39,473 nt of DNA from an uncultured Clostridia bacterium (GTDB lineage: Bacteria; Bacillota; Clostridia; UBA1381; CAJOGA01), in the NCBI GenBank assembly GCA_905233855.1, contig CAJOGA010000020.1, forward strand, positions 1 to 39,473, written 5' to 3'. Shown piece by piece: positions 7,248 to 18,728 of the stretch. Position 1 is the first letter of the stretch. Every line of letters begins with the position of its first letter. Both the position numbers and the translations under genes were made by a program. The notes beneath the pieces were generated by a model. The model ran no database searches. It saw only the letters and a list, made by a program, of their open reading frames with translations, and was not told the DNA's origin.

Positions 7248-8603
7248 TCAAGCCAATGCGGGTATAAGTGTCAACGCGATGGTGAAATATATAACAAGCG
7301 ACAATGCGTCAACCAACGTGGCAATCAGCGGTGCCGCCATAAGTGCAGGGTCTGCCTTTAACAGCTTGGCAATCATCGGCAGCGTACAGCCCACAATATT
7401 TGCCAGAAGCACAGTGCAAATCATAGCAAGCGAGACAACCAGCCCCACTCTTCCGCTTTCCGGATTGAATAATACTATACGCAGATAGTTAAGCAAAGCA
7501 AGCGGCACAGCCACAATAAAGCTTACTCTGAACTCCTTCCAGATTACGGCAGGAAGGTCTTTCATATTTATTTCGCCGACAGCCATTCCGCGTATAACAA
7601 GAGTGCTGGACTGGCTTCCGGCATTACCGCCGGTATCGGTCAGCATAGGTATAAATGTTACCAAAAGCGGCACAACCGAAAAAGCTTCCTCATAAACACC
7701 CAATATCTTTCCCGTTATAATTCCGCTTATCATGAGTATCAAAAGCCAAAAAATTCTGTTTTTAGCCATTGTAAATATGCCGGTTTTAAAATACGGCTTG
7801 TCGTTCGGCGATATGGTGGACATTTTATGAAAGTCTTCCGTTGCCTCTTTTTGTATAACATCGACAGCATCGTCTATGGTAACGATGCCCACAAGTCTGT
7901 TTTCCGCATCTACTACCGGCAGGGATATAAGATCATATTTATCCATAAGATTGGCAACGTCCTCACGATCCGCAACCGTACTTACCGATATGACGTCTTC
8001 TTCCATCAAATCCTGAATTATCTGATTATCTTTTGCAAGTAAAATACGCTTAACCGTTACAACGCCCAAAAGATGGCGGCTGTCATCGGTTACATAACAG
8101 TTATATATCGTCTCGCTGTCTTCTCCGACACGTCGTATTCTTTTTAAAGCATCGGACACTGTTATGTCTTTACGCAAGCTGGTGAATTCAGCAGTCATAA
8201 TACTGCCGGCAGAATTTTCGGGATATTTTAAAAACTGATTTATGACGTTTCTTGTCTCGGGCGATGAGTTCTTTAAAACTCTCTTAACCAAAGTTGCAGG
8301 CATCTCCTCAAGCATGTCAACCGCATCATCCACCGCAAGCTGTTCAATCAATGTGGATATTTCCTTATCGGTAATCGACTTTATAATATGCTGCTGTACA
8401 TCAGGAGAAAATTCGGCAAACACATTCATTGCCTGGTCTTTTGTTAACAAACGAAACACAAGCAGTTGTTCCTCATCAGGCAGCTCTTCTATAAATGCGG
8501 CAACATCTATGTCGAACATATCCGTCAGTTCGGCACGCAACGCTTTATAATCATGCTGTTGTGCAAGTTCGTTTAATTTTGTTGTATTTATTTGCGCAGA
8601 CAT
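7248..8603 (-). CDS. mgtE: Magnesium transporter MgtE (second copy)
   Basis: This 451-residue MgtE channel takes up Mg2+. The domain order is complete. An N-terminal superhelical domain (LTDMFDIDVAAFIEELPDEEQLLVFRLL...) leads to DDAVDMLEEMPA. A pair of CBS domains (~135-255) includes YDLISLPVVDAENRLVGIVTIDDAVDVI. The plug helix and a five-helix channel domain follow, with MLTDTGGNAGSQSSTLVIRGMA, the conserved pore signature. The start is ATG at 8603 with GAGGGGGAG upstream. It lies 13 bp after the first mgtE, so the two are co-transcribed. They differ clearly along their length and look like an old tandem duplication, possibly forming distinct or mixed dimers. Confidence 0.96.
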   Translation of the reverse strand: MSAQINTTKLNELAQQHDYKALRAELTDMFDIDVAAFIEELPDEEQLLVFRLLTKDQAMNVFAEFSPDVQQHIIKSITDKEISTLIEQLAVDDAVDMLEEMPATLVKRVLKNSSPETRNVINQFLKYPENSAGSIMTAEFTSLRKDITVSDALKRIRRVGEDSETIYNCYVTDDSRHLLGVVTVKRILLAKDNQIIQDLMEEDVISVSTVADREDVANLMDKYDLISLPVVDAENRLVGIVTIDDAVDVIQKEATEDFHKMSTISPNDKPYFKTGIFTMAKNRIFWLLILMISGIITGKILGVYEEAFSVVPLLVTFIPMLTDTGGNAGSQSSTLVIRGMAVGEINMKDLPAVIWKEFRVSFIVAVPLALLNYLRIVLFNPESGRVGLVVSLAMICTVLLANIVGCTLPMIAKLLKADPALMAAPLIATLVDALSLVIYFTIALTLIPALA

Positions 8604-8616
8604 TTTTCTCCCCCTC

Positions 8617-9966
8617 TCACATCAACAGTTTTCCGGCGATGGAATAATACAAAACAAGCGTTACGGCATCTACTATTGTTGTTATTAACGGTGCCGCCAT
8701 TATTGCCGGATCTATCTTTAACATTTTGGCAACTATAGGCAAAATACTGCCTATGGTTTTTGCCATTATAATTGCTCCTATCTGTGCCAACGCAACGACA
8801 AGCGGTATAAGTCCCAAATTGCCGTACATTATAAGCAAACGTATATAGTTTGCCGCGGCAAGTATAATACCCACAATAATACTTATCCTGAATTCCTTCC
8901 AGACAACGTAAAAAATGTCCGATACCTTTATCTCACCCAATGCCATACCGCGTATGACCATTGTGCTTGACTGACTTCCGGCATTACCCCCTGTGCCCGT
9001 GAGCATCGGCATAAAGCTTACAAGAACAGGTATTGACGAATACACAGCCTCGTAGCTGCCAAGTATCGCCCCTGTTACCATGCCGCTCAACATAAGACAC
9101 AAAAGCCATACAAACCTGTTTGCAGCAAGCCTGAAAACACTCGTTTTCAGATACGGCTTTTCGCTCGGCGATATTGCCGCCATCTTATGGAAGTCCTCCG
9201 TTGTTTCTTCACGCAATACGTCCAGAGCATCGTCTATGGTGATTATGCCCACAAGATGGTTTTGTGCGTCCACTACCGGCAAGGCAATAAGGTCGTATTT
9301 TGCCAACAACTTTGCCGCATCTTCCCTGTCGTCGGTCGTAACGGTGAATGGCTGTTCGGTTTCCATTATATTTTTTATAAGTTCATTGTCGTTTGCAAGC
9401 AACAGTTCCTTTACCGTTACCTTGCCCTCCAAATGTCTGTCGGCATCTATCACATAACAGGTATAGATCGTCTCTCTGTCTTCGCCTACTTTTCGTATAT
9501 GCTCTATCGCCTCTTTAACCGTCATGTCCTTACTGAGTTTGGTAAACTCCGATGTCATGACGCTGCCGGCTGAATTTTCAGGATAATTCAAAAACTGGTT
9601 TATAAGCGACCGTGTTTCCGGCGATGAGTTCCTCAAAACACGGTTTACCAGCTGTGCGGGCATCTCTTCAATCATATCCACGGCATCGTCCACCCAGAGG
9701 TCGTCTATTATCCTTGACAATTCCGTATCGGTTATGGCTTCCACTATTTTTTGTTGCATGTCGGAATCAAATTCGGCAAATACTTCAGCCTCTGTTTCCT
9801 TGGGCAAAGTTCTGAATGCTATGAGTGCCTGTTCCTGCGGCAACGATTCAATAGCCGACGCAAGGTCGACGCTGTTCATATCGTCAAACACACTGCGTAA
9901 CACCTTATAATTGCGTTCGTTTAAAAGTTCTGTTATATATTCAACATCCTGACGTTGTATTGGCAT
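8617..9966 (-). CDS. mgtE: Magnesium transporter MgtE (first copy, behind the regulatory leader)
   Basis: This MgtE protein of ~449 residues has the full order of N domain, two CBS domains, plug helix and five-helix channel. Matching motifs are LVNRVLRNSSPETRSLINQFLNYPENSAGSVM, YDLIALPVVDAQNHLVGIITIDDALDVL and MLTGTGGNAGSQSSTMVIRGMA. The track starts at a TTG (10011), but GGGAGGAAT lies directly before the ATG at 9966 (MPIQRQDVEY), so I use that start. It is the first structural gene after a long leader with a small ORF and an intrinsic terminator, which implies Mg2+-responsive attenuation (inference). It is followed by the second mgtE and probably feeds into it by co-transcription. Confidence 0.96.
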   Translation of the reverse strand: MPIQRQDVEYITELLNERNYKVLRSVFDDMNSVDLASAIESLPQEQALIAFRTLPKETEAEVFAEFDSDMQQKIVEAITDTELSRIIDDLWVDDAVDMIEEMPAQLVNRVLRNSSPETRSLINQFLNYPENSAGSVMTSEFTKLSKDMTVKEAIEHIRKVGEDRETIYTCYVIDADRHLEGKVTVKELLLANDNELIKNIMETEQPFTVTTDDREDAAKLLAKYDLIALPVVDAQNHLVGIITIDDALDVLREETTEDFHKMAAISPSEKPYLKTSVFRLAANRFVWLLCLMLSGMVTGAILGSYEAVYSSIPVLVSFMPMLTGTGGNAGSQSSTMVIRGMALGEIKVSDIFYVVWKEFRISIIVGIILAAANYIRLLIMYGNLGLIPLVVALAQIGAIIMAKTIGSILPIVAKMLKIDPAIMAAPLITTIVDAVTLVLYYSIAGKLLM

Positions 9967-9984
9967 TTTTATTCCTCCCGATGC

Positions 9985-10046
9985 AAAATAAAAACCCACG
10001 TCAGCAAACAACAGTTCAGCAAAAAACTGTCAGCCTGCAGCGTAGG
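9985..10046 (-). terminator. Intrinsic terminator (attenuator) in the mgtE leader
   Basis: On the minus strand CCTACG pairs with CGTGGG, CAGGC with GTTTG through wobbles, and ACAGTT with AACTGT. This gives one long imperfect hairpin (9995-10046) followed by TTTTTATTTT. It lies between the leader ORF and mgtE, only about 20 nt before the mgtE ORF's SD. Termination here would prevent transcription of mgtE, so it is positioned as an attenuator. Confidence 0.75.
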
Positions 10047-10574: not shown

Positions 10575-10810
10575 ACGAACGGTTTTGATGCAATTATTTT
10601 AATGAAATCGTTCGTTTCACTCACGGTGAAATCCAAACAAGTTTGGATGAGATCAAAGGCTTTGCCTTTGGTGAAATTAAATCCGTCCTCTTTAGCCCGA
10701 CGAAGCCGGATTTCATCACGAAGTGATTTCACCCGCGAAGCGGATTTATTCCGTCTTGAAAAGACGGATTTAACTGAAAAAACGACTTGTCGAAACAAGT
10801 CGTTTTTTCT
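10575..10810. repeat. Nine-hairpin array ending in a strong terminator
   Basis: Nine perfect or near-perfect hairpins follow one another almost without gaps. The clear ones are ATCCAAAC-AA-GTTTGGAT, CAAAGGC-TTT-GCCTTTG, AAATCCG...CGGATTT, ATCAC-GAA-GTGAT, CCGC-GAA-GCGG and CCGTCTT-GAA-AAGACGG. The last is GAAAAAACGACTTGT-CGAA-ACAAGTCGTTTTTTC (10776-10809), a 15-bp stem whose minus-strand loop is UUCG, with T-runs on both strands. Arrays of this kind recur in gut Clostridia genomes, from memory and without a search. Their translation yields repetitive spurious ORFs such as track 10433-10819. Confidence 0.75.
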
Positions 10811-13058: not shown

Positions 13059-13150
13059 TGGCGGAGTAGGAGAGATTCGAACTCTCGCGCCGGTTACCCG
13101 ACCTATACCCTTAGCAGGGGCACCTCTTGAGCCTACTTGAGTACTACTCC
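13059..13150 (-). tRNA. tRNA-Ser (anticodon GCU)
   Basis: On the minus strand GGAGTAG...CTACTCC forms the acceptor stem, with discriminator G and an encoded CCA (13061-13059). The anticodon loop is CCCCTGCTAAGGGG-like with GCT, reading AGC and AGU codons. The long variable arm (GGTCGGGTAACCGGC) is typical of tRNA-Ser, and the T-arm GAGAGTTCGAATCTCTC is perfect. It is co-transcribed with the tRNA-Ser(UGA) 27 bp upstream. Confidence 0.95.
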
Positions 13151-13177
13151 AGATAAATAATAATTATGAGATTATGG

Positions 13178-13266
13178 TGGCGGAGAGAGTGGGATTCGAA
13201 CCCACGGACGCTTGCACGTCGACGGTTTTCAAGACCGTTCCGTTATAACCACTTCGGTATCTCTCC
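13178..13266 (-). tRNA. tRNA-Ser (anticodon UGA)
   Basis: On the minus strand GGAGAGA...TCTCTCC forms the acceptor stem, with discriminator G and encoded CCA (13180-13178). The anticodon stem-loop is CGGTCTTGAAAACCG with TGA, reading UCA-family serine codons. A long class II variable arm (GACGTGCAAGCGTC) and the T-arm GTGGGTTCGAATCCCAC confirm serine. A consensus promoter lies just upstream. Confidence 0.95.
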
Positions 13267-16016: not shown

Positions 16017-16061
16017 ACTCCCGCATTTTGAACCGGACGGTTTGATGTGCGGGAGTTTTTT
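16017..16061 (+). terminator. Terminator after the GH5 gene
   Basis: ACTCCCGCA and TGCGGGAGT form a perfect 9-bp stem, with an inner AACCG/CGGTT stem, followed by TTTTTT. It lies 6 bp after the GH5 stop codon. Confidence 0.88.
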
Positions 16062-16132
16062 GCAAAAAAATTGCAATATGTGCCATGTGGTTTTGAAGCA
16101 TAATGTATCTGTAAACTATATTTATATAAGAG

Positions 16133-16588
16133 GTGGTTTTTACGGAACATTCAAAAATAAGAGATACGGCATTGCTTATCGAGCTGTGGCGTCAACAAGG
16201 CTATGATACGGACAAAATTGCACATATGCTTTCAACGACGCAGCAAAACGTAAGGCAAATACAAAAGCAAGGCGTTGAATATATCCAAACGGTAGAGGCA
16301 CAGGTTGAGATGGCTTTTCTGAAAAAGGCGTTGGGATACAGCTACGACGAGACAAAATACATACGTGAAGGCTATGATGAAAACACAAACGAAACATCAA
16401 AAGTAAAAAAGGAAACCGTTACAAAGCATGTAGCACCGGACCTGAACGCCATTTTTGCGTGGCTTGAGCATCAGATGCCGGAACGGTGGGGAAAAATAAA
16501 GGATACAGAGGAGGATGAACGTTCGGGTGGAATTGTCGTCTTGCCGGAGGTTGTTATAAACAAAGGAGAAGAAGATGATGAACAGTAA
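16133..16588 (+). CDS. Phage terminase small subunit-like protein
   Basis: This ~150-residue protein has an N-terminal HTH-like segment (LIELWRQQGYDTDKIAHMLSTTQQNVRQIQKQG), a central helical region and a C-terminal acidic tail. It matches the general build of small terminase subunits, which recognise phage packaging sites. It is followed directly by a large terminase subunit, with which it overlaps by 14 bp. That context is the main support. The only in-frame start in the track is GTG 16133, which lies inside the SD-like AAGAGGTGG. An ACG at 16142 stands where an ATG would be expected with ideal spacing (MEHSKIRD), so the start codon may have decayed. No other phage structural gene is nearby. 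Confidence 0.75.
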   Translation: MVFTEHSKIRDTALLIELWRQQGYDTDKIAHMLSTTQQNVRQIQKQGVEYIQTVEAQVEMAFLKKALGYSYDETKYIREGYDENTNETSKVKKETVTKHVAPDLNAIFAWLEHQMPERWGKIKDTEEDERSGGIVVLPEVVINKGEEDDEQ

Positions 16589-17969
16589 ACCTAAACAGAG
16601 ACTTTTATGGTCGCCGCAAAAAAAGCAGTGTGAATTTATGAGCCGCCCGGAGGATGAGGCGTTGTACGGCGGAGCGGCAGGCGGCGGCAAAAGCGATGCA
16701 TTGCTTGCCGAGGCTTTGCGTCAGGTTAATATTCCTTGTTACAGGGCTATTATTATAAGAAAGACAATGCCGCAATGCTCCGAACTTATCGACCGCTCAC
16801 GTCTGTTGTACGGCAGTGCGTTTCCCGATGCTGTGTTTAATGCGACAAAAAATGTGTGGACATTTAAAAGCGGTGCAAAAATATATTTCGGTTCAATGCA
16901 CCATGCGTCGGACAAGCTGAAATATCAGGGCAAGCAGTATGATTTTATAGCATTTGATGAATTGACGCATTTTACGTGGGAAGAATACAGCTATATGTTC
17001 AGCCGTAACCGTCCGTCAGGTTTGGGGACAAGGTGTTACATGCGTGCTACATGCAATCCGGGCGGAATAGGACACAGTTGGGTAAAGGCACGCTTTATCG
17101 ACGGCAAGAAACCGTATCATACATATACCGAAACGGTTACGATAGACGGAGTGGAATATAAAAAAAGCAGGGTGTTTATACCGTCCACTGTGTTTGACAA
17201 TAAGATTTTGCTCAAAAATAATCCGAATTATGTTGCAAATCTTGCAATACTACCCGAAAACGAGAAAAAGGCGTTGTTGTATGGAGATTGGAACAGCTTT
17301 TCGGGACAGGCATTCAGCGAGTTCAGAGACAATCCCGAAAATTACAATTCGCGTGTGTGGACACATGTTATAGCCCCGTTCGATATTCCGCGTGGCTGGA
17401 AAAGGTACCGCAGTTTTGACTTCGGATATGCCAAACCGTTTGCCGTGCAGTGGTGGGCGGTAGATTATGACGGCAGAGTGTATCTTTATAGGCAGTTGTA
17501 CGGCTGTACGGATGAACCTAACACAGGCGTCAAGTGGGAACCGAGCCGTATAGCAAAAAAAATAAAGGAGATAGAAAGAGAATATGAACGCGGACTGCAT
17601 GTGTACGGCGTTGCGGATCCGTCTATTTGGGATGAAAGCCGCGGTGTAGACGGCACAATAATAAATATGTTTGAACGTGAGGGAATATATTTTGAAAAAG
17701 GAGACAACACAAGGCTTGCAGGCAAGATGCAGCTGCACTACAGAATGCAGTTTGATGACGAGGGATATCCGATGATGTATGTGTTTTCAAATTGTAAACA
17801 GTTTATACGTACATTGACAACGCTTGTGTACGATAAGGTGAATGTGGAGGATATAGACTCTTCGCAGGAAGACCACGATTATGACGCATGCCGGTATTTT
17901 CTTATGACAAACCCGATAGCACCGAAAAAGAAAATTGTTGTAAACGGTGAGTTTAATCCGTTATTTTAA
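16575..17969 (+). CDS. terL: Phage terminase large subunit
   Basis: This 464-residue packaging motor and nuclease appears full length. The ATPase Walker A is LYGGAAGGGKSDALLAEA (~residues 30-48), and YDFIAFDELTHFTWEEY is Walker B with the catalytic Glu. RATCNPGGIGHSWVK is the coupling motif. The RNase H-like nuclease domain begins RSFDFGYAKPFAVQWWAVD with its acidic residue, continues GVADPSIWDESRG, and ends EDHDYDACRYFLM. All key motifs are present, so the ORF is not obviously broken. Portal, capsid, tail and integrase genes are missing on both sides. It is either the last remnant of a prophage or a retained two-gene unit. Base composition does not stand out from the host. Confidence 0.93.
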   Translation: MMNSKPKQRLLWSPQKKQCEFMSRPEDEALYGGAAGGGKSDALLAEALRQVNIPCYRAIIIRKTMPQCSELIDRSRLLYGSAFPDAVFNATKNVWTFKSGAKIYFGSMHHASDKLKYQGKQYDFIAFDELTHFTWEEYSYMFSRNRPSGLGTRCYMRATCNPGGIGHSWVKARFIDGKKPYHTYTETVTIDGVEYKKSRVFIPSTVFDNKILLKNNPNYVANLAILPENEKKALLYGDWNSFSGQAFSEFRDNPENYNSRVWTHVIAPFDIPRGWKRYRSFDFGYAKPFAVQWWAVDYDGRVYLYRQLYGCTDEPNTGVKWEPSRIAKKIKEIEREYERGLHVYGVADPSIWDESRGVDGTIINMFEREGIYFEKGDNTRLAGKMQLHYRMQFDDEGYPMMYVFSNCKQFIRTLTTLVYDKVNVEDIDSSQEDHDYDACRYFLMTNPIAPKKKIVVNGEFNPLF

Positions 17970-18074: not shown

Positions 18075-18159
18075 TAATGCAAGTCAAGCTGTTATCGGGA
18101 TTGTCGTCCCAATAACAGCTTTACCAATCTTGCATTACAGCTTTTAATTTGTGTAATGC
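18075..18159. repeat. Nested and mutually exclusive hairpins between terL and mntP
   Basis: TAATGCAAG (18075-18083) pairs with CTTGCATTA (18129-18137). This encloses AGCTGTTAT-c-GGGA-TTGTCG-TCCC-a-ATAACAGCT (18087-18120), a 13-bp stem with a 1x1 mismatch. Separately GCATTACA (18132-18139) pairs with TGTAATGC (18152-18159), ending on the mntP stop codon. The two structures share GCATTA and cannot form together. The sequence from 17970 to 18074 holds no gene that I can support. Confidence 0.65.
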
Positions 18160-18728
18160 TATATAATATTCAAATGTTCAAGCAGGATTTTTGCTCCCAA
18201 AAGAATTAATATCAATCCGCCGGCAATTTGTGCGTTCCGTTCAAATTTATCGCCGAAGATACTGCCGATTTTAACTCCTGCTGCAGACAGAACGCATGTG
18301 GTTATGCCTATAAGCGTAACGGCTGTAAATATATTGACATTCCCGGTCATAGCAAGCGAGATGCCTACTGCAAGTGCATCTATTGATGTTGCCACGGCCA
18401 TGGTAAACATTGTCTTAACGGAAAAATCCGCATTCTTTTCATTGTCATTATCTTCAGCGGAAAAAGCCTCTTTAAGCATGTTAAAGCCTATAATGGCAAG
18501 CAGAATAAATGCCACCCAATGGTCTATGGCGACAATTTGTTTTGCAAAAAGACTTCCGAAAAAGAATCCTATAAGAGGCATAATTGTCTGAAATCCGCCA
18601 AACCAAACGCCGCATTTTATCATGCTGCCGATTTTTGCTTTTTTCGATGACAAGCCTTTACAAACCGACACCGCAAAAGCATCCATGCTGAGTCCGACTG
18701 CCAGCATAAAAAGTTCAAAAAAACTCAT
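18159..18728 (-). CDS. mntP: Manganese efflux pump MntP
   Basis: This 189-residue membrane protein has six hydrophobic helices in two DUF204 repeats. The first repeat carries AVGLSMDAFAVSVCKGL and the second AVATSIDALAVGISLAM, with the conserved transmembrane aspartates of MntP. GGLILILLGAKILLEHL closes the protein. It exports Mn2+ and protects from Mn toxicity in other bacteria. The ATG at 18728 follows TTGGAGG. In many bacteria mntP is controlled by MntR or the yybP-ykoY Mn2+ riboswitch. I see no yybP-ykoY consensus here, but the leader contains a three-way-junction-like fold (18816-18869). The divergent neighbour is cdaA. Confidence 0.95.
   Translation of the reverse strand: MSFFELFMLAVGLSMDAFAVSVCKGLSSKKAKIGSMIKCGVWFGGFQTIMPLIGFFFGSLFAKQIVAIDHWVAFILLAIIGFNMLKEAFSAEDNDNEKNADFSVKTMFTMAVATSIDALAVGISLAMTGNVNIFTAVTLIGITTCVLSAAGVKIGSIFGDKFERNAQIAGGLILILLGAKILLEHLNII

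Follow-up and report, generated by a model that had tools for sequence, protein, structure and literature searches.

Background

GTAs are known from few lineages. PBSX of Bacillus subtilis occupies one prophage-like region and has a contractile tail. It has been described as a defective phage that is kept by its host and packages host DNA (as cited in PMC12946183). The features that define a GTA are 1) proteins derived from tailed phages; 2) full endogenization, often at multiple loci; 3) mostly vertical inheritance; 4) encapsidation of mostly random host DNA; 5) a head too small for its own genes; and 6) delivery to other cells (PMC9662315). The genes of RcGTA are distributed over five loci of R. 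capsulatus and are vertically inherited (PMC9662315, PMC6854486). FpGTA of Faecalibacterium prausnitzii, described in 2026 (Nat Commun), is the first GTA with podovirus-like morphology; it is encoded by two unlinked operons 125 kb apart, forms DNA-filled particles with podovirus-like 40-nm heads and approximately 9 kb of DNA, is near-universal in its genus, and has no replication or integration genes (PMC12946183). Its authors reported GTA-like packaging also in Ruminococcus, Onthomonas, and Christensenellaceae, with the genes unnamed (PMC12946183).

The DNA analysed here (the window) is the full 39,473-bp contig C20 of a MAG of the class Clostridia, designated G000 (1.67 Mb, 93 contigs, 97.65% complete). 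Its terS-terL pair very probably encodes the packaging motor of a GTA-like system that is podovirus-type, dispersed, and fixed in the chromosome. G000 seems to keep a phage-derived packaging machine, in at least three intact parts at separate sites, for its own use, which would most likely be the export of pieces of its own DNA.

Comparison with described systems

Two of the six formal features were found in G000. Proteins derived from tailed phages are represented by matches to TerL, TerS, a P22-like portal, a major head protein, a tail fibre, a holin, an internal virion protein, and an endolysin. Endogenization at multiple loci is seen as three host-flanked loci in G000 and as two loci 270 kb apart in the related genome G213. 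Since the count stands at two of six, and co-inheritance of the parts was found in the family f16 only, we refer to this system, known here from its genes alone, as GTA-like rather than as a proven GTA.

The closest described system, compared by gene content and arrangement only, is FpGTA. Both have a clostridial host of gut type and a podovirus-like set of TerS, TerL, portal, scaffold, MCP, fibre, holin, and endolysin genes over unlinked loci. They differ in that the FpGTA I operon holds TerS-TerL together with portal and MCP, whereas in G000 the terminase is separate and the endolysin occupies a third locus; moreover, FpGTA TerS is without an obvious DNA-binding domain, whereas the window TerS has a helix-turn-helix (HTH)-like region. 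RcGTA and the Rhodogtaviriformidae, likened here by description, likewise have their phage-derived packaging genes spread across several sites in the chromosome. Unlike RcGTA, G000 has a P22-like portal and a set that looks podovirus-type, and its TerS, unlike that of RcGTA, appears to keep a helix-turn-helix. The system of G000 is also unlike PBSX in being dispersed and in looking podovirus-type.

Window TerL is 35–37% identical to that of cultured phages (Pelagibacter HTVC, Roseobacter CRP) and up to 67% identical to that of viral contigs (IMG/VR gut contigs). Portal and head families related to those of G000 occur in viral contigs of tailed phages with P22-type portal and Terminase_6N. Such contigs have contiguous TerS-TerL-portal-scaffold-MCP genes, whereas in G000 the genes are split among host genes and are without replication or integration genes.

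The terminase pair and its surroundings

The preliminary description of this DNA had placed a terS-like gene and a full-length terL with intact motifs alone between a GH5 gene and mntP, and the ORFs, family matches, and flanks confirmed this (Table 1). The two ORFs overlap by 14 bp. The GTG annotated as the start of terS overlaps a Shine-Dalgarno-like GAGGTGG, which leaves the true start codon uncertain. In the TerL alignment (A6), the ATPase motifs (GGAAGGGKSDAL and FDELTHF), the coupling motif ATxNPGG, and the nuclease aspartates (FDFGY, ADPS, and EDHDYD) were all intact and conserved. One flank is a GH5 cellulase gene (Pfam E 2e-30). Between the convergent 3′ ends of terL and mntP lies a hairpin, a possible bidirectional terminator.

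Genome searches found no second member of the window TerL family in G000. Across the 39.5-kb window no other structural phage genes were seen, and the ORF listing and repeats of the window included no integrase or att-like repeat. Window TerL breaks 1 of 100 near-invariant columns. Relaxed selection on terL, which the preliminary description had named as a point against its view, is therefore excluded in its long-term form, recent relaxation being outside the reach of this comparison.

A tRNA-Ser pair (13059–13266, minus strand) was examined as a possible att site and discarded, since integration at the 3′ end of the tRNA would place an element on the opposite side. The two proteins encoded at positions 7248–8603 and 8617–10011, 6–9 kb from the terminase, have 51–55% identity to an MgtE-like gene bordering the head locus of genome G009 (L162 10367–11713). 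Positions 10670–10771 have 73.5% protein identity to part of a recombinase zinc-ribbon-domain protein on contig C29 of G000.

Table 1 Features of the terminase, head, and endolysin loci of G000 and of selected loci in related genomes
Feature	Location	Strand	Length	Remarks
Upstream element TTTTTTGCAAAAAAATTGCAA	window 16056..16076	+		two GCAA half-sites 11 bp apart; putative activator site of terminase operon
-10-like hexamer CATAAT	window 16099..16104	+		22 bp past second GCAA; predicted
terS, small terminase	window 16133..16588	+	151 aa	PHROG 309 E 3.1e-15
terL, large terminase	window 16575..17969	+	464 aa	Pfam Terminase_6N E 9.5e-15; PHROG 979 E 3.4e-62
Hairpin between terL and mntP 3′ ends	window 18083..18124	.		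inverted repeat, 18-nt arms, 89% complementary
mntP, host manganese exporter	window 18159..18728	-		convergent with terL; Pfam Mntp E 1.4e-52
Core site 1	C20:16061			before terS
Core site 2	C40:6890	-		before head operon
Core site 3	C8:17012			directly before isolated amidase gene
Head operon gene 1		-	283 aa	fibre-like protein
Head operon gene 2		-	544 aa	portal
Head operon gene 3		-	258 aa	scaffold
Head operon gene 4		-	410 aa	MCP
Head operon gene 5		-	88 aa	c5
Head operon gene 6		-	566 aa	tail fibre
Head operon gene 7		-	132 aa	
Head operon gene 8		-	146 aa	holin
Head operon gene 9		-	254 aa	c8
Head operon gene 10		-	571 aa	internal virion protein
Head operon gene 11		-	564 aa	c11
mntP beside head operon of G069–G072	L202 809–1375; L203 6659–7237; L204 4158–4724; L205 3512–4174			
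f28 proteins preceding terS-terL	L064 2780–3091; L215 10657–11028; L217 3129–3440			

Head operon and endolysin gene at other loci

In other Clostridia, relatives of TerL lie near a P22-like portal, a scaffold, a major head protein, and others; alignments of these neighbouring proteins were used to seek partners in G000. One MCP and one portal were detected, both on contig C40, and homologues of c8 and the internal virion protein on contig C7. The portal is P22-like and was detected solely by the alignment of the relatives; a search of G000 with Pfam SPP1_portal (PF05133) was negative. C40, at its left end, shares an exact overlap of 99 bp with the right end of C7, and the joined contigs form one 11-gene minus-strand head/tail/holin operon. 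This operon is bordered on one side by the host genes for a rhaB-like kinase, ymdB, and rny, and on the other by a host-like gene. No terminase, endolysin, integrase, or replication gene was seen in it. A portal/capsid cluster lacking a terminase, which the preliminary description had proposed to look for elsewhere in the genome, is thus present. Its statement that the pair stands without any other phage gene holds within the window but not genome-wide, with partner genes on C40, C7, and C8. The gene ymdB also adjoins the head locus in three f28 genomes (L181 2098–2871; L216 11692–12459; L218 11995–12762), as in G000 (L148 8510–9313, C40), and its relative orientation differs.

The gene on C8 is a lone amidase/endolysin gene among host genes. 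Its product is an Amidase_2 protein (Pfam E 4e-23) with a strong match to phage endolysins (PHROG 3088, E 1e-50), a lysis function that the head operon lacks.

Both ends of C20 are at least 16 kb away from the window terminase, so that, barring a chimeric C20, the terminase and head loci are genuinely separate; with at least 16 kb between them, one short fragment presumably could not hold both. Judging from ORF listings, repeats, and partial family searches, neither an integrase, a repressor, replication genes, nor att sites were seen at the window, C40/C7, and C8 loci, that is, the feature set of a temperate prophage was found at none of them.

A shared promoter-like element

The upstream regions of terS and the head operon have TTTTnTGCAAAAAAAnnGCAA in common. 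In a whole-genome search of G000, the core of this element, TGCAAAAAAANNGCAA, occurred exactly three times in 1.67 Mb, before the terminase, head, and endolysin genes (Table 1); the core was defined on two of the three sites, and the third alone is independent. At all three sites CATAAT or TACAAT stands exactly 22 bp past the second GCAA, TACAAT being the form at the head and endolysin loci, which also have GGTGCTACAAT in common. Markov models from 123 kb of G000 gave expected genome-wide counts of 0.26–0.57 for the core, 0.003–0.011 for the TTTTN-extended form, and 0.002–0.005 for the core with the -10-like hexamer at 22 bp. The third site, on C8, conforms to all three forms alike.

We read the terminase, head, and endolysin loci as a putative three-locus regulon. 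The common element also argues that C20, C40/C7, and C8 come from one organism. In f16 a different repeated element, TTGGCAC...GGCACT...TATAAT, precedes both operons; no convincing common upstream elements were found in G159, G180, G064, G069, and G254.

Proposed mode of action

An activator acting on the paired GCAA repeats, which are 11 bp or one helical turn apart, would induce the three loci together in a few cells. Small short-tailed heads would be built from the products of the head operon; TerS-TerL, acting in trans, would dock on the portal and fill the heads with DNA, after which holin and endolysin would cause lysis and set the particles free. Most of the packaged DNA would come from random parts of the host genome, since genes so dispersed cannot enter a head as a single genome. 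The terminase pair may at some point in evolution have been swapped relative to the head genes. A kept module of a gene-transfer system was among the options of the preliminary description, and it is well supported by the terminase-less head operon in G000.

The same dispersed machine could alternatively be a PBSX-like killing or lysis particle, packaging host DNA without delivering it. The head, fibre, and lysis genes are intact, as such a particle would have them, and the authors of FpGTA leave the killing-particle option open for their system (PMC12946183). We consider this unlikely for G000, where the conserved portal, TerS-TerL, and internal-virion-protein homologue indicate packaging and ejection, not a contractile tail.

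Split terminase and capsid loci in related genomes

A total of 393 genomes of the class were searched with the TerL (A6) and MCP (A5) alignments. The isolation of the terminase, which the preliminary description had proposed to seek in relatives, was found to recur, with split terminase and capsid loci in 14 f16 and 5 f28 genomes. TerL and MCP were on different contigs in 5/5 f28 and 13/14 f16 genomes with strong matches; the 14th, G213, consists of one 2.76-Mb contig, on which TerL is at 1,637,794 and MCP at 1,908,799, and one f28 genome has a linked second copy besides the split loci. In 12 f16 genomes the gene order is largely kept at both loci, and the host flanks secDF and ruvX recur around the terminase/portal locus. 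The f16 components are intact except for one stop each in the matched stretch of portal and c4 of G193. Another arrangement was seen in G069–G072, in which TerS-TerL-portal-holin-endolysin (L029, L033, L036, and L063) is apart from scaffold-MCP (L202–L205). In family f4, all nine g11 genomes have TerL, MCP, and portal, and the terminase is often divergent from the head genes, with host genes at the borders.

On balance, we lean towards a widespread clade of clostridial podovirus-type GTAs that would have their motor, head, and lysis components dispersed. In G000 these would form a three-locus regulon controlled by a single dedicated promoter element, and the terminase of the clade would be an exchangeable module, the TerL of one lineage being of other ancestry than its head. 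These loci provide candidate GTA gene sets in families with unlinked terminase and capsid genes, an arrangement that would escape cluster-based prophage finders, and the promoter-like element offers a handle for finding the remaining parts. Single-contig and syntenic genomes provide test cases, and how often gut Clostridia export DNA, and through which genes, becomes directly testable.

Several minor observations were made on these genomes. In G069–G072 an mntP gene, with approximately 50–54% identity to that of the window, likewise lies next to and convergent with the terminase-less head operon; its presence beside both loci hints at an ancestral shared site, and coincidence is possible. In G009 (contig C228, L164 590–2572), terL is cut after approximately 125 codons and followed by a large serine recombinase gene, possibly an insertion into terL. 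Some linked head clusters end in a protein of 2000–2400 aa (L023 11174–17317, with a ddrB-ParB domain; L151 12701–19939; L153 13896–19970); such clusters could be genuine prophages or another kind of element. G061, G022, and G012 each have more than one MCP/TerL set. In f28, terS-terL is preceded by a Prp-like protein of 103–123 aa (a ribosomal-processing protease, as read from its sequence) and a conserved protein of approximately 121 aa.

Selection and phylogeny

Values of dN/dS and distances were compared over 12 f16 genomes. The component genes had median dN/dS of 0.049–0.19, with 0.066 for TerL, 0.049 for MCP, and 0.068 for portal, versus 0.10 and 0.09 for the host genes secF and ruvX. 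Distances of TerL correlated with those of MCP (rho 0.84), and the distances of TerL and MCP with those of host ruvX (rho 0.92 and 0.93, respectively). The isolated terL of two f28 MAGs gave a dN of 0.001 versus a dS of 0.07.

The tracking of ruvX and the syntenic flanks indicate vertical inheritance and co-diversification with the host in f16, whereas the TerL and MCP trees conflict for G000. G000 is sister to f16 in the MCP tree (support 100/98). In the TerL tree f16 groups with L066; a grouping of G000 and f16 alone was rejected (p-AU 6e-7), and with L066 included it was not (p 0.295). At least one exchange of the terminase relative to the head genes is implied by these trees, which leave the lineage unspecified. 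Co-inheritance of terminase and head was observed in f16, not in G000.

TerS and the origin of the window pair

The N-terminus of the window TerS resembles a helix-turn-helix (alignment A7), with a weak Sigma70_r4 match (E 0.008). Its AlphaFold2 model (pLDDT 79) has helices at residues 3–21, 26–33, and 37–67; a PDB fold search gave no match at E ≤ 0.001 and weak HTH-like local matches only. The proteins in TerS position of f28, f16, f4, and G069–G072 are mostly 73–107 aa, start at the coiled-coil-like part, and are without the HTH-like region. Absence of an N-terminal DNA-binding domain has been proposed as the mark of GTA-type TerS (PMC6854486), a mark that the window TerS does not bear. Because it keeps the HTH-like N-terminus, unlike its counterparts in the relatives, the window pair could be a more recent, more phage-like replacement, and the terminase may retain some packaging specificity.

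The phage-like helix-turn-helix and the conflict between terminase and head phylogenies would also suit a recent scar of a prophage reduced to its terminase. This is very unlikely, as terL is undecayed, the window contains no integrase, att-like repeat, or other phage gene, and the terminase has its promoter element in common with the head operon and the endolysin gene. Phage satellites often carry terminase subunits, and the pair might belong to one that hijacks helper heads via its own terminase. No integrase, primase, repressor, capsid-size, replication, or interference genes were seen beside the pair, however, and related head genes with the same promoter element are resident in the same chromosome instead, which leaves this option with a minimal probability. 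That misassembly or binning placed a phage terminase between host genes, as a MAG of 93 contigs might lead one to ask, is scarcely credible given the split in many independent assemblies, one a single contig, the promoter element on three contigs, and the host-like codon use of terL (RSCU correlation 0.88). Of the options in the preliminary description, gene transfer is thereby favoured, whereas the prophage scar, assembly-time relic, and satellite find no support. For the scar and the relic, the near-invariant columns of TerL, the recurrent split, and the shared element all count against them.

For the preferred reading, a dispersed GTA-like system, candidate regulators were seen in relatives. 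Beside terL of f16 lies a protein of 142 aa that matches a phage transcription regulator (PHROG 36, E 5e-8), and proteins with HTH and Peptidase_S24 domains (LexA/CI-like) adjoin the terminase locus in f16 and f28 (L211 7793–8539; L215 11168–11836). No HTH-S24 gene adjoins the window pair. The PHROG 36 protein and the HTH-S24 protein of f16 are candidate regulators, and the HTH-S24 genes beside the f16 and f28 terminases suggest SOS-type control.
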